DNA from: Candidatus Saccharimonadota bacterium
GTDB taxonomy: Bacteria; Patescibacteriota; Saccharimonadia; Saccharimonadales; Saccharimonadaceae
Reading direction: 5' to 3'
NCBI GenBank assembly: GCA_017404935.1
Contig: JAFRBI010000011.1
Coordinates: 1-64,000, forward strand
Length of the DNA stretch: 64,000 nucleotides
Shown: in pieces, positions 19,692 to 57,647 of the stretch
Numbering within the stretch: position 1 is the stretch's first letter
Layout of the letters: the number at the start of each line of letters is the position of its first letter
Made by a program: the position numbers and the translations under genes
The notes under the pieces: generated by a model
Told to the model about the DNA's origin: nothing
The model's input: only the letters and a program-made list of their open reading frames with translations
Databases searched by the model: none

Positions 19692-19744
19692 AAAAAATAC
19701 GGGGCTGACACTTTAAAAACTTGCGGGGAGAAAGGAGGGAGCTT

Positions 19745-19816
19745 ATGGGTTTAGAAATAAATCTTTTGTTTGGATTATTCCAGATAAAAATTATTCGCTC
19801 TAGAAAGAGCGAATAA
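19745..19816 (+). CDS. 23-aa hydrophobic peptide, candidate type I toxin (copy 1)
   Basis: The sequence begins MGLEINLLFGLFQIKII and ends in a charged tail (RSRKSE). AAGGAGGG lies 6 nt before the ATG. Against copy 2 (52877-52948) the first 17 codons carry four changes, all synonymous. The three amino-acid changes are confined to the last six codons, which double as one half of a hairpin. The peptide is short, apolar and basic at its end, as in type I toxins that act on membranes. Toxicity is inference, and no homologue is named. Confidence 0.65.
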   Translation: MGLEINLLFGLFQIKIIRSRKSE

Positions 19817-19827
19817 CATAAAATCCT
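19786..19827 (-). ncRNA. antisense RNA opposing the 23-aa peptide gene (copy 1)
   Basis: On the minus strand TTGACT (19857-19862), 17 bp, TAGAAT (19834-19839) predicts a start near 19827. The hairpin TTATTCGCTCT/AGAGCGAATAA (19791-19816) followed by TTTTTAT terminates it. The RNA of about 42 nt is complementary to the 3' end of the peptide ORF and its stop codon. Confidence 0.6.
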
Positions 19828-19880
19828 GATACTATTCTACCGTACACTAATTAATAAGTCAACCCCGGTTTAGGTTAAAG

Positions 19881-19944: not shown

Positions 19945-19997
19945 ACAAAAATGTGCCCCAATTTTACAATTGGGGGGTTGCGGGTATTCCCGAATAT
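19945..19997 (-). ncRNA. convergent small RNA, copy 1
   Basis: The minus-strand promoter is TTGACA (20027-20032), 17 bp, TAAAAT (20004-20009). The predicted ~53-nt RNA contains the hairpin CGGG-AATA-CCCG and the terminator hairpin CCCCAATT/AATTGGGG followed by T-rich sequence. It is related in layout to the RNAs at 20137-20190 and 33572-33638. Confidence 0.6.
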
Positions 19998-20047
19998 ATC
20001 TTAATTTTAACAAAAATATGGTTGGTTGTCAATTGTTAATTTGAAAT

Positions 20048-20155
20048 ATGAGTGTCTCAAGATTATACAATAAGATAGGAGTTTTGCCAGAATCCGACTT
20101 AGAGAAGATTCGTCGGGCGTTGTCTAGTCTAATTTTGGAAAAAAATACTCCCTAA
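20048..20155 (+). pseudogene. C-terminal remnant of a MazF/PemK-like toxin gene
   Basis: An open stretch of 35 codons encodes MSVSRLYNKIGVLPESD and LEKIRRALSSLILEKN. This aligns with the C-terminus of the intact MazF-like protein at 33176 (MSVYRMHHKFGEVPESD, then YNKVINGLRELLLRKK). A TGA lies just upstream in frame and the beta-barrel part is gone. Its TAA stop lies inside the terminator hairpin of the convergent small RNA copy 2, as the intact gene's stop abuts copy 3. Confidence 0.75.
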
Positions 20156-20190
20156 TCTTGCGATTAGGGTGGACGGGTATCCCCGAATAT
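20137..20190 (-). ncRNA. convergent small RNA, copy 2
   Basis: TTGACA (20220-20225), 17 bp, TAAAAT (20197-20202) on the minus strand. The RNA starts near 20190 and contains CGGG-GATA-CCCG, a CCACC linker and the terminator CCCTAATC-GCAA-GATTAGGG followed by a T-run opposite 20138-20145. It faces the mazF remnant. Confidence 0.65.
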
Positions 20191-20254
20191 ACTTTGATTT
20201 TAGCAAAAATGCGGTGGATTGTCAAGAGGGGTTTTGCAGGAATTTGTAAAATAA

Positions 20255-20310: not shown

Positions 20311-20706
20311 ATGAAAAATAATTATAAAGTGATAGTAGCGACTTCAGAAAAAGACAGACCTTATGATTTTGAGATGTCAGCAGCAATTTTAGTAGCAAAT
20401 TATTTTAAAACAGATATTACTTTTTTGAGACCTTCGCCACTAAAAAGCCCAGACTTAAAAATAAAAAATCAAATTTGGGAATTAAAAAGCCCAATAGGGG
20501 ATAGTAAAAATACCATTCATAATATTTTTGTAACTGCTAGACATCAGTCATACAATGTAGTGATTGATTTAAGGAGATGCAAGATGAATGAAAATAAGGC
20601 ATACGCAAGAATTCGTTACGTATTTAATAAGAGAAGGCGAGTAAAATGCCAGTTAAAAATCATTAGTAAGAATGGTAGGATTATTGACATTTCTGAAATA
20701 CTTTAG
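20311..20706 (+). CDS. BECR-fold/CdiA-CT-like tRNA nuclease domain protein
   Basis: 131 aa. The pattern EMSAAILVANYFKTDITFL, then IWELKSPIGDSKNTIHN, a QSYNVVIDLRR strand and a final IISKNGRIIDI matches standalone nuclease domains related to CdiA C-terminal tRNases (barnase-EndoU-colicin-RelE fold). No signal peptide, delivery domain or adjacent immunity gene is visible. The ATG is 6 nt after the -10, without a ribosome site. It lies between the mazF remnant and the DGR. Function as a toxin is inferred from the fold; family assignment is by eye. Confidence 0.65.
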   Translation: MKNNYKVIVATSEKDRPYDFEMSAAILVANYFKTDITFLRPSPLKSPDLKIKNQIWELKSPIGDSKNTIHNIFVTARHQSYNVVIDLRRCKMNENKAYARIRYVFNKRRRVKCQLKIISKNGRIIDISEIL

Positions 20707-20822: not shown

Positions 20823-20890
20823 AGCATAAGCAGGGGGTGGGGGGATAAAAATTATTTTTGTTGCAATTTTGATAATGGTTGTGGTATAAT
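20823..20890 (+). promoter_or_regulatory. G-rich box plus promoter, copy C (DGR target gene)
   Basis: CATAAGCAGGGGGTGGGG is retained. The downstream part has diverged: -35-like TTGCAA (20861-20866), 18 bp ending TGTGG, and a perfect TATAAT (20885-20890). The predicted start is at or next to ATG 20897. Confidence 0.65.
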
Positions 20891-20896
20891 GGGGTC

Positions 20897-22291
20897 ATGA
20901 ATGAGGTGATGCATAATATGAATAGAATAAAAGCTGGCGGTATTTTGGCGGTTGCAGCATTAATAGCAGCAGCGGGCATAGCCTACACAAACCAAGCTCA
21001 CGCCGACAACGTAGATTACACCGTAAACGTCGCAGACAGCCTTAATGTTACGGTATCATCTAGTAGCGTAGTACTAGACTTAAATCCAAACACCAAGACT
21101 TCTGATTCTCAAGATATTACCGTGACGGTTGGCACTAACAATATCACAGGCTATAAACTCAATATGTCTTCTACTGGTGATATTACCAGCTTAACCAGAG
21201 ATAGCTCAGTAGATGGTATAGCAGCTAGCATCCCGACACTTTCTGCCGAGGCTGGTGCTACTGCAAGCTCCCTTTCTGACAACACTTGGGGTTATAGACT
21301 AAATAATACCGGCAATTTTGTCCCGTATGTTTCTGGTGTGCAAATTATGGAAAAGAACGTTGCAACAAATGCAGACACCGCCACACTATCTTTCGCATCC
21401 AAGATTAATTACAACCAATCTGCTGGTTCATACGCAATTAACTTGATCTTTACCGGTACAGTCAACCCACTTTGTGATAACACTATTGATGGTGATATGC
21501 AAACCTTTGATCCTTGCCCAGATATGGCAATTGGTACATCTGGTACACTTAAAGACCTAAGAGATAATAAAGTTTATACCGTAGCCAAGCTGGCAGACGG
21601 CCAAATCTGGATGACTTCAAACCTCAACCTTGCTGGTGGCACCAAGCTATACTCAGAAACTTCTAACGTGCCAGCTGGTTACCCGGAATCTGCTGGGGTA
21701 GGTTACTATACCCTCCCAGCTTCTAGCTCTAGCGGCTTCTCATCAGATACCGTAGCCTATGTCTACAACACCGGCAACGAAACCACCACTCAAACTTCAG
21801 CAGCTAATAACTCTTACTATTCCTGGCTCGCAGCTACCGCTGGCGGAAAAGATGCCTCAGGCACTGCCGTCACGGATAATGGCTACAATGCTGCTTACTC
21901 CATTTGTCCAAAAGGCTGGAGACTGCCTACTGCTACTACAGAAGGTGTACCTAGAGATAGTGGCGGATATACTGGTGGTGACTTCTACAAGATGACTCTA
22001 GCCGTAAAAGGCGTAACCAGCCTTCCAAATGGTTACTATGCAGATCCAGATTCTACCCCAACATTTAATACTAACGCAGGTCCAGGTACGCTACCTAATT
22101 TCTTGCTCGCTGGCTTCTACGTCTCTAGCTCGTTCTACTATGGGGGCGCGAACGGCTACTATTGGTCGTCCTCGTCTAACTCGTCTACGGGCGCCTACTA
22201 CTTGCTCTTTCTTAGTTCGTACGTCTATTCCGCCTTCAACAATTACCGCCGCCACGGGTTCTCCGTGCGGTGCGTGTTTGCTGGGAGTTAG
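20897..22291 (+). CDS. DGR target: secreted FISUMP/C-type-lectin-fold surface protein with variable C-terminus
   Basis: 464 aa from ATG 20897 (6 nt after TATAAT). ATG 20918, with GAGGTG upstream, is an alternative start. A signal peptide ends near AYTNQAHA. A Thr/Ser-rich beta domain follows at about residues 30-190. A Fibrobacter-succinogenes-major-paralogous-type domain then contains LRDNKVYTVAKLADGQIWM and CPKGWRLPT. The last ~65 residues are encoded by the variable repeat and contain YYWSSSSNSS and GFSVRC, the ligand-binding face of the lectin fold. Retromutagenesis would change Asn-derived codons here. Probably a cell-surface adhesin or receptor of an episymbiont; the ligand is unknown. 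Confidence 0.88.
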   Translation: MNEVMHNMNRIKAGGILAVAALIAAAGIAYTNQAHADNVDYTVNVADSLNVTVSSSSVVLDLNPNTKTSDSQDITVTVGTNNITGYKLNMSSTGDITSLTRDSSVDGIAASIPTLSAEAGATASSLSDNTWGYRLNNTGNFVPYVSGVQIMEKNVATNADTATLSFASKINYNQSAGSYAINLIFTGTVNPLCDNTIDGDMQTFDPCPDMAIGTSGTLKDLRDNKVYTVAKLADGQIWMTSNLNLAGGTKLYSETSNVPAGYPESAGVGYYTLPASSSSGFSSDTVAYVYNTGNETTTQTSAANNSYYSWLAATAGGKDASGTAVTDNGYNAAYSICPKGWRLPTATTEGVPRDSGGYTGGDFYKMTLAVKGVTSLPNGYYADPDSTPTFNTNAGPGTLPNFLLAGFYVSSSFYYGGANGYYWSSSSNSSTGAYYLLFLSSYVYSAFNNYRRHGFSVRCVFAGS

Positions 22292-22318
22292 CGCTAGGTT
22301 TCCTAGGTTCCTCCCCCA
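22098..22318 (+). repeat. DGR variable repeat (VR)
   Basis: 221 bp matching the inverted template repeat at 24362-24582. The 22 differences fall between about 22115 and 22251, and each replaces a template A (with T, G or C). The final ~65 bp, including the stop codon, are identical to TR and probably serve as the initiation-of-mutagenic-homing region. A short hairpin CTAGG-TTT-CCTAG lies after the stop codon. Confidence 0.95.
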
Positions 22319-22390
22319 CATCTCCCTCGGAATAAGCATATGACAAATTTGAAGAAAAATTCTGGAGCAACCAGCATTCGAGAATAAGGT

Positions 22391-23239
22391 ATGAAAAAAG
22401 AAAAAGAAGAATATCTCAGGCACAAGAGGGCGCTTCTGGAGCTTGAAAAAGACAACTACAGTAAGTTGTATCTCATGAAAACCAATGAGAAGTGGTATAA
22501 AATGTTTGGGCATTCGGCTTTGTTTCTTGCCAAGCATTTGAATGACAGGGTAGGCAAAAATTACACTTTGCATTTTGACAACGACTATGGCGTGCGTGAC
22601 AAAAGTGGTTCGATTTCGATTCCAGGGGACAAACTTTCGGAATTCAAACTGAGGATGAAATACGCCAAAATCAATTTGGTGAGAGAGTGGGGCGAAGGGC
22701 TAGAATTTGAGATTGGCGAGCGACTGACCGAAGAAGATGTGGTGAGAATGGAACAAGAGGACGAGCACATCGCTGCCAAAGCCAACGAATTGGTGCTTCC
22801 GCACGCGATTATGCCCGAACTTCGGGTGCAGGTGAAAGATATGACCAGAATGGTGCATGAGCTCATCAGCAACCAATCTAAACTCGCCAAAACCGCGTTT
22901 TTGTTTGATTTTGAAAAAGAAGCGGTAGAAATGAATATGCTGGTAATTGCGATGGGGCGAGGGGCAATAGAAATAGACATTTGTCTAGAAAAACTTTTAG
23001 AGATGGTAGAGATGATGTATGAATATGCCACCGTGGTGGCAGACCTTGATTTGACACCGCCAAAGAAGTTTTACCGAGTGGTAAAGAAAATACGTTCGGT
23101 AGAAGACCAAATTAAACGTGAAATTAAAAAGCAAACAATTAGAAAGGTGGATAGTGGAAGAAAAAAGGCTAAAAGACCTACGAAAATGGACGCAAAGAGC
23201 AAACGCCTATCAAGCGCCAAAGAAAAAGAAGCTAAATAA
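22391..23239 (+). CDS. DGR accessory protein with MutS-like N-terminal domain
   Basis: 282 aa. Residues about 10-115 resemble the MutS mismatch-recognition domain (EKWYKMFGHSALFLAKHLN, then SISIPGDKLSEFKLRMKYA and a GERLTEE end). Such MutS-like accessory proteins are known from DGRs, especially in CPR genomes. Residues about 130-250 are long helices that could form an Avd-like bundle on which RT acts; this second assignment is speculative. The C-terminus is very basic. It lies between target and RT, and the RT frame overlaps its end. A weak ribosome site (AAGG) precedes the ATG. Confidence 0.7.
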   Translation: MKKEKEEYLRHKRALLELEKDNYSKLYLMKTNEKWYKMFGHSALFLAKHLNDRVGKNYTLHFDNDYGVRDKSGSISIPGDKLSEFKLRMKYAKINLVREWGEGLEFEIGERLTEEDVVRMEQEDEHIAAKANELVLPHAIMPELRVQVKDMTRMVHELISNQSKLAKTAFLFDFEKEAVEMNMLVIAMGRGAIEIDICLEKLLEMVEMMYEYATVVADLDLTPPKKFYRVVKKIRSVEDQIKREIKKQTIRKVDSGRKKAKRPTKMDAKSKRLSSAKEKEAK

Positions 23240-24350
23240 CCGAAACTTTTTGGAACGATTGCCAGAGTGCAACGACGACCTTGAAGATACGCTGTTTGAA
23301 TGTTATATGATGGCAAGGCGAGGAAAACGGCGGACGGTAGATGAGTATAAGTTTGAGGTGTTTTTGGAAGAAAATCTGAGGCAACTTAAAGACGATATTA
23401 TTCACCGAAGGTGGAAACCGAGCCGATCGAAGGCGTTTGTAACTCACACGCCCGTCGATCGAGAGATTTTTGCGGCGCAATTTAACGATAGAATTGTGCA
23501 CCATCTTTTGTATGCGGTAGTGGCGCCGTGGTGGGACAAAAGGTTTATTTACGATTCTTACTCTTGCAGAGTGGGTAAGGGGACAGATTTTGGGGCGGAA
23601 AGAATGCAAACATTTATGCGAAAGGCGTCTTTAAACTGCCAAAAAAGAGCCTATGTTTTAAAGGGCGATATATCGGGGTATTTTATGAGCCTCAAGCGAC
23701 AGATTTTGTATGACAAAGTGATGTGGGGGCTTAAAAAACAATTTCCTGATAAAGGATTTTTGTATAAACTGTGCGAATATTTGTGGCGAGAGGTGATTTT
23801 TGATGACCCGTGCCTGGGGGCGAGAATGGTAGGGCGCAAAAAAGATTGGGAATGTTTGCCCTATAATAAGTCGCTTTTTCATCAGCCCGAGGGGCAAGGC
23901 ATTGTAATTGGAAACCTTACTTCACAACTTCTCTCTAACATTATGCTGAATAATTTTGATTGGTATGTCAAAAAGAAGCTGGGGTTTTCCTATTATGGGC
24001 GATATGTAGATGATTTTTTCGTGGTGGTGCCTTTTGAAGATTTCGAGCGGGCAAAACAGGCATTTCGCACCGAAATACCAGAAAAATTAAAAGAAATGGG
24101 GCTAAAAATGCACCCCAAAAAACTTTATATTCAAGAGGTGAGGAAGGGGTGCCCATTTCTTGGCAAAATGGTGCGACCGTTTGTGATGACGCCAGGTCAG
24201 CGCTACATCAAAAATATGAAAAAAGCATTTAACGGTTACGTAAGAGGTGAAATTAGCTATGAAACCGCTCAATCTTACATCGGAATGGGGCGGCACGTAG
24301 CCGCCTTCAAAGCGATGAATAAGGCTTTGGATCTTGTGGGATACAAATAG
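23154..24350 (+). CDS. DGR reverse transcriptase
   Basis: 398 aa from GTG 23154 (AAAGG upstream); GTG 23118 is the alternative start, and both overlap the accessory gene. RT motifs are present: QFNDRIVHHLLY, YVLKGDISGYF (motif 3 Asp), GIVIGNLTSQLLSNIML (the DGR IGxxxSQ signature), and the catalytic YGRYVDDFFVV (YxDD), followed by the thumb region FLGKMVRPFVMTPG. It copies TR RNA with errors at adenines and delivers the cDNA to VR. It is not a retron or group II intron RT, because the TR/VR pair is visible. Confidence 0.93.
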   Translation: MEEKRLKDLRKWTQRANAYQAPKKKKLNNRNFLERLPECNDDLEDTLFECYMMARRGKRRTVDEYKFEVFLEENLRQLKDDIIHRRWKPSRSKAFVTHTPVDREIFAAQFNDRIVHHLLYAVVAPWWDKRFIYDSYSCRVGKGTDFGAERMQTFMRKASLNCQKRAYVLKGDISGYFMSLKRQILYDKVMWGLKKQFPDKGFLYKLCEYLWREVIFDDPCLGARMVGRKKDWECLPYNKSLFHQPEGQGIVIGNLTSQLLSNIMLNNFDWYVKKKLGFSYYGRYVDDFFVVVPFEDFERAKQAFRTEIPEKLKEMGLKMHPKKLYIQEVRKGCPFLGKMVRPFVMTPGQRYIKNMKKAFNGYVRGEISYETAQSYIGMGRHVAAFKAMNKALDLVGYK

Positions 24351-24361
24351 CTCTTGAGATA

Positions 24362-24582
24362 TGGGGGAGGAACCTAGGAAACCTAGCGCTAACTCCCAGC
24401 AAACACGCACCGCACGGAGAACCCGTTGCGGCGGTTATTGTTGTTGGCGGAATTGACGTTCGAACTATTAAAGTTCAAGTTGTAGGCGTTCGTAGACGAG
24501 TTAGACGAGGACGACCAATAGTTGCCGTTCGTGCCTCCATTGTTGAACGAGCTAGAGTTGTAGTTGCCAGCGAGCAAGAAAT
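24362..24582 (-). repeat. DGR template repeat (TR), inverted relative to VR
   Basis: 221 bp, read on the minus strand. Many AAC and AAT codons occur at the positions that are substituted in VR. The open frame through it (minus 24616-24389) is a by-product of its protein-coding origin and has no start signal. Sense TR RNA must be made from the minus strand, against the RT gene, so its promoter should lie right of 24600. I could not pick one with confidence. Confidence 0.93.
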
Positions 24583-24608
24583 CGGCACTGCCTACCAAGG
24601 GTGCATAA

Positions 24609-24698
24609 AGGGGCACTGTTAGAATTTAGAAAATCATTATTTTTTGGCGATTTTCTAAATAAATATACTCACCCATTTTTTGGTGCGAGGGTGCCCCT
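24609..24698. repeat. inverted-repeat structure next to the DGR template
   Basis: AGGGGCAC (24609-24616) pairs with GTGCCCCT (24691-24698). Inside, TTTAGAAAATC (24625-24635) pairs with GATTTTCTAAA (24649-24659), and CACCC with GGGTG. On the minus strand it lies just upstream of TR, so it may fold at the 5' end of the TR RNA or mark an element border. 24700-24860 holds nothing else that I recognise. Confidence 0.5.
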
Positions 24699-33082: not shown

Positions 33083-33131
33083 CATAAGCTAGGGGTGGGG
33101 GGTTGAAATTCTCGATAAGGTGTGATACAAG
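33083..33131 (+). promoter_or_regulatory. G-rich box plus extended -10 promoter, copy D (mazF-like gene)
   Basis: CATAAGCTAGGGGTGGGG, then TTGAAA (33103-33108), 17 bp ending TGTGA, then TACAAG (33126-33131). The start is predicted near 33138, leaving a 38-nt leader with AGGAAGGA before the gene. Confidence 0.6.
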
Positions 33132-33175: not shown

Positions 33176-33583
33176 ATGAATAAATTAGGTAAAAAAGATT
33201 TTAAAGGCTGGATTATAATCAAGGAGAAAATCCACTACGAACAGAAGCTTCAATTGTATAAGGAGGGAGAGATTTGGTGGTGCAAAATAGGTGAAAATGT
33301 AGGGAATGAAATATGTGGCAAAGGTAAAAAATTTATACGACCGGTTTTGGTGGCTCGCAAATTGAGTAAAACTAACTTTATTGGTGTACCATTGACATCG
33401 CAACCGCACAAAGGGACCTGGTATGTTGAATTTGATTTTAAAGGCAATAGAGAATATGCAGTTGTCGCACAAGTAGAAAATATGAGTGTATATAGAATGC
33501 ATCACAAATTTGGCGAAGTGCCTGAGTCGGACTACAATAAGGTGATAAATGGGTTACGTGAGCTTTTATTAAGAAAAAAATAG
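33176..33583 (+). CDS. MazF/PemK-like endoribonuclease toxin, no antitoxin gene adjacent
   Basis: 135 aa. The MazF/PemK beta-barrel core runs GEIWWCKIGENVGNEI, KKFIRPVLVARKL, GVPLTSQPHKGTW, then YAVVAQVENMSVYRM and the helix ESDYNKVINGLRELL. About 30 residues precede the core. Such toxins cut single-stranded RNA. No protein antitoxin gene lies on either side. Instead a small RNA gene faces its 3' end (33572-33638), and a G-rich promoter precedes it. A truncated paralogue with the same small-RNA arrangement is at 20048. Confidence 0.85.
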   Translation: MNKLGKKDFKGWIIIKEKIHYEQKLQLYKEGEIWWCKIGENVGNEICGKGKKFIRPVLVARKLSKTNFIGVPLTSQPHKGTWYVEFDFKGNREYAVVAQVENMSVYRMHHKFGEVPESDYNKVINGLRELLLRKK

Positions 33584-33638
33584 CCCCTAACCTTATGATT
33601 AGGGTGGGCGGGTATCCCCGAAAGTGTATCATTGATAC
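33572..33638 (-). ncRNA. convergent small RNA, copy 3
   Basis: TTGATT (33668-33673), 17 bp, TATAAT (33645-33650) on the minus strand. The ~66-nt RNA contains TGTATC-AAT-GATACA, CGGG-GATA-CCCG, a CCCACC linker and the terminator CCCTAATC-ATAA-GGTTAGGG followed by a T-run. The terminator abuts the stop codon of the mazF-like gene. Confidence 0.65.
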
Positions 33639-33699
33639 ATTTTCATTATACTGCATTTTGAGAATAAAATCAAGTAAAATGTGGTATAATATATAAGAT

Positions 33700-39529: not shown

Positions 39530-39973
39530 ATGGCTACTATTGACCAGCAATTCGTAGAATATATTGTAAAAACTCTAGTAAATAATCCAGACAAAGTATC
39601 AGTAGAGCGCAAAATTGATGAAAAGGGTGTGCTTCTCTCGCTTACGGTGGATCCAGAAGACGTAGGTCGCGTAATTGGTCGTCGTGGTGCGACTGCACAA
39701 TCTATTCGGGTACTACTTCGGGCTCTTGGCACCAAGCAAGATGCTCGTTACAATCTTAAAATCGTAAATACCGACGAAGAAGGTGCTGAACGTCCAGCTA
39801 GAAAAGCCGAGAAAGCTGAAGAGAAAGAAGTCGAAAAGGATGTAGAAGCTGTAGAAGAAGCCGAAGCTGTAGAAGAAGCTGATGAAGAGCTTGAGGAAGA
39901 AGAGCCAGAAACTTCTGAACTTGCTGAGAAAACTCGCGCAGAACTCGCCGACCTCGACGATCTTGACATATAA
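39530..39973 (+). CDS. khpA: KH-domain RNA-binding protein KhpA with acidic tail
   Basis: 147 aa. The KhpA/YlqC KH domain fills residues 1-80 (FVEYIVKTLVNNPDKVSV, VGRVIGRRGATAQSIRVLLRAL with the GxxG loop GRRG). A highly acidic tail of about 60 residues follows, absent from typical 76-aa KhpA. A GGAG ribosome site is present. The gene's stop codon is the first triplet of the hairpin element at 39971. Confidence 0.88.
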   Translation: MATIDQQFVEYIVKTLVNNPDKVSVERKIDEKGVLLSLTVDPEDVGRVIGRRGATAQSIRVLLRALGTKQDARYNLKIVNTDEEGAERPARKAEKAEEKEVEKDVEAVEEAEAVEEADEELEEEEPETSELAEKTRAELADLDDLDI

Positions 39974-40144
39974 AATTAAAGTGATTTTAGACAGCTTGGA
40001 CTTGTTTGCTTGTAAAATTCACAACATAAAGGCAAGAAAAAATGCTCTTATAATCGGAGCATTTTTTCATTGTCAGGTTGTGAATTCTACGCAAACAAAT
40101 CTGGTCTAAATCTCATTATGCTGTCTAAAATCACTTTAATTTTA
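39971..40144. repeat. hairpin element copy X: 124-bp core between perfect 25-bp inverted arms
   Basis: The left arm 39971-39995 and right arm 40120-40144 are exact reverse complements (AATTAAAGTGATTTTAGAC on the left). The core (39996-40119) is about 93% identical to the core at 57500-57623. It folds on itself, with the apical hairpin AATGCTC/GAGCATT. The arms of the two copies are unrelated in sequence. Confidence 0.85.
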
Positions 40145-52824: not shown

Positions 52825-52876
52825 TTCTGTATGGGGTTGACACTTTAAAAACTTGCGGGGAGAAAGGAGGTAGTTT

Positions 52877-52948
52877 ATGGGTTTAGAGATAAATCTTTTA
52901 TTTGGGCTATTCCAGATAAAAATTATTTGCTCTAACAAGAGCAAATAA
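52877..52948 (+). CDS. 23-aa hydrophobic peptide, candidate type I toxin (copy 2)
   Basis: MGLEINLLFGLFQIKII followed by CSNKSK. GGAGG lies 6 nt before the ATG. The residues shared with copy 1 are kept despite four silent changes (GAA/GAG, TTG/TTA, GGA/GGG, TTA/CTA). This indicates that the peptide itself is selected. Confidence 0.65.
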   Translation: MGLEINLLFGLFQIKIICSNKSK

Positions 52949-52959
52949 TCACAAACTAT
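52917..52959 (-). ncRNA. antisense RNA opposing the 23-aa peptide gene (copy 2)
   Basis: TTGACT (52989-52994), 17 bp, TAGAAT (52966-52971) on the minus strand. The start is near 52959. The terminator hairpin TTATTTGCTCT/AGAGCAAATAA (52923-52948) plus TTTTT ends it. Relative to copy 1 one stem pair changed from C:G to T:A on both sides. Confidence 0.6.
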
Positions 52960-52992
52960 AATTCTATTCTACCGTACACTAATTAATAAGTC

Positions 52993-53017
52993 AACCCCAT
53001 TTAGGGGTTATTTTTTT
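52993..53017. terminator. terminator shared by the peptide mRNA and exonuclease I
   Basis: AACCCC-ATTTA-GGGGTT followed by ATTTTTTT on the plus strand. AACCCC is also the right inverted repeat of the module, so pairing with the mRNA 5' end and terminator formation compete. Confidence 0.65.
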
Positions 53018-57475: not shown

Positions 57476-57647
57476 AGTTAGGAATGGCATTCTCAAAACT
57501 TGGACTTGTTTGTTTGTAAAACTTACAACATAAAGACAAGAAAAAATGCTCTTATAATCGGAGCATTTTTTCATTGTTAGGTTGTAAGTTTTACACAAAC
57601 AAATCTGGTCTAAATCTCATTATGTTTTGAGAATGCCATTCCTAACT
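57476..57647. repeat. hairpin element copy Y: 124-bp core between perfect 24-bp inverted arms
   Basis: The arms 57476-57499 and 57624-57647 are exact reverse complements (TTAGGAATGGCATTCTCAAA on the left). The core 57500-57623 matches copy X base for base in length. Nine differences occur, most of them paired. The element fills the whole gap between the convergent metG and aquaporin stop codons. Confidence 0.85.

Follow-up and report, generated by a model that had tools for sequence, protein, structure and literature searches.

A family of small structured RNAs convergent with mazF genes that lack mazE: probable antidotes of MazF in Patescibacteria

Introduction

In the type I toxin-antitoxin systems txpA/RatA and bsrG/SR4, a convergent RNA antitoxin overlaps the 3' end of the toxin gene; each toxin is a small hydrophobic peptide, and the antitoxin works by long pairing. 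Type III systems are organized differently: toxin gene and RNA share one operon, the RNA coming first as tandem repeats and being separated from the toxin gene by a terminator (PMC5086642). For the type II mazEF locus of S. aureus, an antisense RNA called aMEF has been described which is reported to stimulate the synthesis of the complete mazEF system (PMC8749433).

Here, we have analysed a stretch of 64,000 nucleotides from a Candidatus Saccharimonadota genome (contig JAFRBI010000011.1, positions 1 to 64,000; hereafter the window), in which a small RNA gene faces the 3' end of a mazF gene. This locus resembles the type III systems ToxIN, CptIN and TenpIN in that the only candidate antitoxin of an RNase toxin with the MazF/Kid-like fold is a small structured RNA (PMC5086642). 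It differs from them in that a single RNA unit with its own promoter is convergent at the toxin 3' end instead of being co-transcribed ahead of the toxin, and no tandem repeats with a period of at least 15 nt were found within 300 nt upstream of the toxin gene at any of 78 loci. Moreover, the toxin is a PF02452 MazF, and the RNA is not homologous to those of type III. With the type II systems MazEF and PemIK the locus shares a toxin that belongs to PF02452 and models as MazF, but it has no MazE-like or other conserved upstream ORF, and the toxin carries an extra N-terminal helix and occupies a separate branch of the tree. As in txpA/RatA and bsrG/SR4, the RNA gene and the toxin gene are convergent and their 3' ends overlap; however, the toxin is a MazF of 135 amino acids rather than a small hydrophobic peptide, and the core of the RNA is conserved and covarying. 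Like aMEF, the RNA is antisense to a mazF locus, but it has not been reported that aMEF is a conserved, structured RNA located at the 3' end of a mazF that lacks an antitoxin (PMC8749433). The literature that could be searched, which did not include most subscription papers and preprints, held nothing matching on RNA antitoxins of MazF or of candidate phyla or on convergent RNA antitoxins. The RNA family has no match in Rfam at the gathering score and none in NCBIfam or PADLOC. With no description found in the literature that could be searched, and with no Rfam family, the arrangement is apparently undescribed.

Results

The window contains three copies of the RNA gene, all on the minus strand. 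The copy u1 (19945-19999; 72.0 bits with the RNA model R1) consists of a leader, the hairpin CGGG-AATA-CCCG (19981-19994, including the preceding TT), a C-rich linker and a terminator, and it is preceded by a promoter at 20004-20032 with TTGACA (20027-20032), a spacer of 17 bp and TAAAAT (20004-20009). The copy u2 (20139-20192; 76.4 bits) has its hairpin at 20174-20187 and its promoter at 20197-20225, again with TTGACA (20220-20225), 17 bp and TAAAAT (20197-20202). It is convergent with a plus-strand mazF remnant (20048-20155; E 2e-07) of which only the last approximately 33 codons are left, corresponding to positions 99-131 of the MazF profile, and its terminator lies at the stop codon of this remnant. 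The copy u3 (33574-33638, hairpin at 33609-33622) is convergent with an intact plus-strand MazF/PemK gene (33176-33583; PF02452 E 4.7e-09) that encodes a protein of 135 amino acids with a clade-specific N-terminal helix; the U-tract of its terminator overlaps the 3' end of mazF, and its promoter (33645-33673) is made up of TTGATT (33668-33673), 17 bp and TATAAT (33645-33650). Each copy folds into two hairpins followed by a U-run, and the conserved hairpin reads TTCGGG(A/G)ATACCCG in all three. Thus, the three minus-strand units with promoters and hairpins that the first-pass annotation had proposed were all found in their places. Its statement that two of the three face a mazF gene or a remnant stands for u3, which faces the intact gene, and for u2, which faces the stop codon of the remnant; u1 lies on the 5' side of the remnant. 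Two details are to be added to that first description: u3 carries a further 5' hairpin, TGTATCAATGATACA, ahead of the conserved one, and the remnant at 20048-20155 sits between u1 and u2.

The exact 14-mer CGGGRATACCCG occurs three times in the window, where 0.16 occurrences are expected, and three were reached by only one of 100 shuffles. The source genome (740 kb in 11 contigs), whose closest named relatives are gut Candidatus Saccharibacteria, contains six occurrences, i. e. one each on the contigs C5, C7 and C9 in addition to those in the window, and none of the reversed control pattern. Each of the copies on C5, C7 and C9 is convergent with an intact mazF gene. Two more copies were detected at the remaining mazF genes, on C3 with the covariance model and on C1 by inspection of the 3' flank, so that exact search, covariance model and MazF flanks together give eight RNA copies in the genome. 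Given the copies on C5, C7, C9, C3 and C1 and the copy u3, all six PF02452 genes of the source genome carry the RNA.

The members of the family have a common layout. A strong extended sigma70 promoter is followed by a predicted transcript of about 54 nt, in which a hairpin of 3-4 bp, a short linker rich in C and a terminator succeed one another; the U-tract of the terminator overlaps the stop codon of the convergent mazF. In 72 aligned upstream regions, the promoter logo TTGaca-17 bp-TGnTATAAT stands at a fixed distance of 15 nt ahead of the hairpin, and 50 of these regions have at most two mismatches in the twelve core promoter bases, as compared to less than 1% of shuffles. The conserved AUAUU would be the 5' end of the RNA, judging from the start site that this promoter implies. 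Among 77 distinct copies from the genus, 97.7% of the cells of the two-hairpin structure are paired, and there are 146 two-sided compensatory cells, whereas shuffles give 31.5 and slid controls no more than 13. Compensatory changes are seen in the terminator stem, which is variable yet paired, as had been suggested, and helix 1, which lies outside the terminator, occurs as CGGG/CCCG, CGAG/CUCG, CGAC/GUCG, CGGC/GCCG and UGGG/CCCA. The conserved promoter and this covarying non-terminator hairpin contradict the objection that the sites might be only terminators. Two other roles were rejected: a peptide antitoxin encoded inside the RNA, since the RNA is too short and any ATG is present in only five of 74 copies, and an attenuator or riboswitch, since there is no sense gene downstream and the RNA ends at the mazF stop codon.

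In 99 genomes of the same genus, R1 has 81 matches and PF02452 has 62. The 3' end of a PemK/MazF gene is the site of 48 of the 81 RNA matches, and all 48 are convergent; they lie no more than 132 nt beyond the PemK 3' end, and 47 of them no more than 28 nt. The chance expectation for this coupling is far below one. Another 16 matches, including u1 and u2, adjoin broken MazF remnants, fragments that are detectable only with a clade-specific profile, 15 have no trace of MazF nearby, and two weak matches look false. Thus, the matches are not scattered, and the proposed link of the RNA to toxin genes holds. The model R2, which was built from genus sequences only and used as a hold-out on other families, found four matches in three distant families of the phylum, each of them convergent with a mazF at its 3' end, so that the covariance-model search of related genomes also bore out the co-occurrence with mazF/pemK.

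The search was also carried out starting from the toxin. With the MazF alignment A6, the toxin was found in 32 of 287 genomes of the phylum, and most of the 3' flanks have the same layout with other hairpins, UUUGGCAUUAGCCACG and AAAUGGCUUCGGCCUCG classes being present besides the class of the window; a few of these loci (e. g. L166 and L181) show no such layout in the 3' flank. In a set of 80 named loci from Saccharibacteria, Nomura-, Taylor- and Peribacteria and others, picked out through MazF alone, R2 detects the RNA at the toxin 3' end 76 times, and at L240, L243, L257 and L265 a convergent promoter and two hairpins were seen by eye. Since many of the named loci come from the same genomes as the genus set, the independent part of this result consists of the loci from Nomura-, Zambryski-, Taylor- and Peribacteria. 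The RNA end and the stop codon overlap by a median of 2 nt, and the two touch or overlap in 68 of 76 cases. A motif-free test that asked only for a terminator at the 3' end and a convergent promoter whose -10 box lies 40-90 nt away from the stop codon was passed by 51% of these MazFs and by none of 553 other ORFs. No copy of the RNA motif could be recognised at L097, L100, L102, L103 and L106, five MazFs of the genus that have diverged very strongly; apart from these and a few uninspected genes, no intact MazF of the clade without a convergent RNA was found in the genus.

The product of the intact gene in the window is a protein of the PemK/MazF fold: it scores 36.9 bits against PF02452 (curated cut-off 23.1), and its AF2 model (pLDDT 88.3) matches S. 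aureus MazF in Foldseek with an E value of 2.7e-07. In the MazFs of this group, Arg55 is invariant and Thr/Ser74 is conserved, positions that we take to belong to the catalytic site of MazF. Toxicity as a sequence-specific RNase is inferred. The RNA-coupled MazFs share an N-terminal helix (F..W...K..L) that is absent in canonical MazF. A conserved ORF upstream of RNA-coupled mazF genes was not found, the largest homologous group, surface proteins, accounting for six of 77 loci; the earlier observation that the intact MazF has no adjacent protein antitoxin gene is thereby confirmed over 77 loci. In the same phylum, 12 of 14 canonical PemK/MazF genes are overlapped from upstream by an ORF that is MazE-like or otherwise antitoxin-like, and a convergent promoter at the 3' end was found in none of the 14. 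In the MazF tree, whose internal resolution is poor and which has some long branches, the RNA-coupled MazFs of both phyla, Patescibacteria and Campylobacterota (see below), form one group, which is split from 11 MazE-coupled MazFs by a branch with 100/95 support. As far as gene neighbourhoods tell, RNA and MazE are mutually exclusive partners of MazF in the phylum.

The RNAs beside broken mazF genes do not differ from those beside intact ones in model bit score (p 0.13) or promoter (p 0.97), whereas the RNAs without any MazF have somewhat weaker promoters (p 0.03). That toxins die and RNAs persist is the pattern that would be expected of a toxin and its antitoxin. The head of the RNA correlates with the MazF sequence (Mantel r 0.50, and 0.48 among pairs with less than 65% identity) more closely than does the terminator part (r 0.37, and 0.17 among such pairs); this correlation could stem partly from co-inheritance alone.

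Homologues of these MazFs are present outside the phylum, on plasmids of Nitratiruptor, Campylobacter and Helicobacter and on CJIE4-type phages, and they also match PF02452. A convergent -10 box is seen at these genes too; two or three hairpins come after it and end at or inside the 3' end of mazF, and three Helicobacter copies exhibit compensatory changes (GCTTACC/GGTGAGT, GCTTGTC/GGCAAGT and GCTTGCT/AGCAAGT). The Campylobacterota RNAs are of greater length and have no clear U-run; we regard these structured plasmid and phage RNAs as analogous to the Patescibacteria family. No convergent RNA was seen on two Campylobacter plasmids (L302 and L303) in which mazF is broken or shortened, and viral contigs scanned for the combination of promoter and hairpin gave none. 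The MazF of the CJIE4 prophage is expressed as a protein in five isolates and has no MazE gene (PMC3995785), and small RNAs on pVir have been reported by differential RNA-seq (PMC3656092).

Discussion

The genomes reveal an RNA gene with a promoter and a covarying structure that is coupled to one clade of MazF and persists beside dead toxins. Its transcription, the toxicity of the MazF, the neutralisation of one by the other and the binding of the RNA to the protein rather than to the mRNA are inferred, and with this restriction the RNA family is probably the antidote of MazF. We suggest that the small RNA gene and the convergent mazF constitute a two-gene toxin-antitoxin module in which the RNA replaces MazE and most likely binds MazF as in type III, a reading that we hold with some confidence but far from certainty. 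In such a module, transcription would start about 7 nt past the strong extended -10 box and yield an RNA of about 54 nt, composed of the AUAUU leader, the hairpin of 3-4 bp, a short linker and a rho-independent terminator with its U-tract on the mazF stop codon. The RNA would be made in excess, in the place of a protein antitoxin, for a PemK/MazF-fold ribonuclease without MazE. The folded RNA would most likely mimic a substrate and dock non-productively on the MazF dimer, comparable to ToxI RNA on ToxN, and a drop in the transcription of the short RNA would set MazF free. The idea of the first-pass annotation that the RNA controls an antitoxin-less MazF is supported by the coupling to MazF, by the lack of a protein antitoxin and by the MazE-coupled MazFs that have no RNA; the choice of the mechanism is inferred.

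Convergent RNAs act by antisense on small hydrophobic toxins in Gram-positive bacteria, and it is conceivable, if rather unlikely, that the RNA described here similarly pairs with the untranslated 3' end of the mazF mRNA and triggers its decay or blocks expression. The convergent geometry with its short overlap at the stop codon (median 2 nt, 68 of 76 touching or overlapping) fits this possibility, and there is no space for a separate mazF terminator. Moreover, transcription of mazF necessarily continues into the RNA gene, and full complementarity in the 3'-UTR is therefore always present, so that an antisense action cannot be excluded. However, pairing of this kind requires no conserved sequence, whereas leader, hairpin and loop are near-invariant or covarying despite the divergence of mazF; the overlap with the coding sequence is merely a few nucleotides, and the RNAs beside broken mazF genes remain intact. 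Nor does the RNA pair any better with the 5' or ribosome-binding region of its cognate mazF than with that of non-cognate ones. Recognition by the protein is thus favoured because of the conservation and covariation of hairpin and leader, the correlation with the MazF sequence, the persistence beside broken toxins and the absence of pairing at the start region. By inference, the RNA is an antitoxin that replaces MazE, and binding to MazF is more likely than antisense pairing.

Rather than being an antitoxin, the RNA might be inherited together with mazF as a regulator or decoy, such as a cleavage target of MazF whose fragments signal activation; the conserved single-stranded AUAUU leader and the hairpin loop could serve as a recognition site, and enzymes of the MazF fold do bind short single-stranded RNA, solved MazF-RNA complexes being available. 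We consider this improbable: these MazFs, which are kept in several copies per genome, would then have no antitoxin at all, and the RNA is absent from the MazE-coupled MazFs of the phylum. Even less can be said for transcriptional interference, i. e. a head-on collision from the strong promoter opposite mazF that limits mazF transcription and produces the RNA as a mere by-product, since it leaves the covariation of the non-terminator hairpin and the conserved leader unexplained. That the arrangement is due to chance, or that the sites are just bidirectional terminators downstream of mazF, is barely tenable: the 3' hairpin is indeed a good terminator, but its U-tract is on the strand opposite mazF, the promoter is conserved at a fixed spacing, and the combination was found in none of the 553 control ORFs.

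If binding of the antitoxin RNA to MazF can be demonstrated, the system could merit its own toxin-antitoxin type. We give about even chances to the broader idea that Patescibacteria and Campylobacterota share an undescribed type, in which a single-unit RNA, convergent with the toxin gene and transcribed on its own, would neutralise true MazF ribonucleases by binding to them; the RNAs would fall into at least four structural classes that co-evolve with the toxins. Across the candidate phyla radiation, as well as on plasmids and phages of Campylobacter and Helicobacter, there are PemK/MazF genes for which no antitoxin can be seen, and the RNA is a concrete candidate for the missing partner. With a protein partner in one clade of a toxin family and an RNA in another, the evolutionary relation between type II and type III becomes testable. 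There is also a simple rule for finding antitoxins that annotation has missed: to inspect the opposite strand at the stop codon of the toxin gene.

Several other elements deserve mention. A 169-nt repeat (19698-19866 and 52830-52998 in the window; also G000:C10:16955-17122, and a diverged copy at C3:118013-118170) contains an ORF of 23 codons, MGLEINLLFGLFQIKIIRSRKSE, behind a strong Shine-Dalgarno sequence, and a perfectly conserved convergent promoter (TTGACT-17-TAGAAT) that leads to a covarying terminator hairpin where the ORF ends. It is a candidate type I toxin-antitoxin system with the same geometry as the RNA and mazF. Small solitary proteins with a CdiA_C domain (PF18451) adjoin mazF-less copies of the RNA, at 20311-20706 in the window and at L070, L076, L079 and L092; the distance of their genes to the RNA is looser than that of mazF, and they may possibly represent a second nuclease toxin. 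At one locus (L068, G037:C49), an RNA copy lies 41 nt past the 3' end of a gene for a VapC-like PIN-domain protein that has a small, antitoxin-sized ORF upstream.

Upstream of the intact mazF of the window, on the plus strand (33083-33131), there is a G-rich element with a weak promoter-like core, TTGAAA, which it has in common with other accessory genes. This element, GGGGTGGGGGGTTGAAATT, occurs at 12 sites in the genome, among them 19643, 20256, 20825 and 33083 in the window, upstream of mazF genes, of the CdiA_C-like gene and of the target gene of a diversity-generating retroelement; by its looks, it is a weak promoter that accessory genes have in common. The retroelement itself (20879-24616) comprises a reverse transcriptase (23118-24350), a target protein with a Fib_succ_major domain (20879-22291) and a pair of 227-nt inverted repeats at 22098 and 24356 that are 90% alike. 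Finally, two copies of an element of about 126 nt, 93% alike, are found at 39971-40144 and 57476-57647, each bounded by a perfect inverted repeat of 24-25 nt that differs between the two copies.
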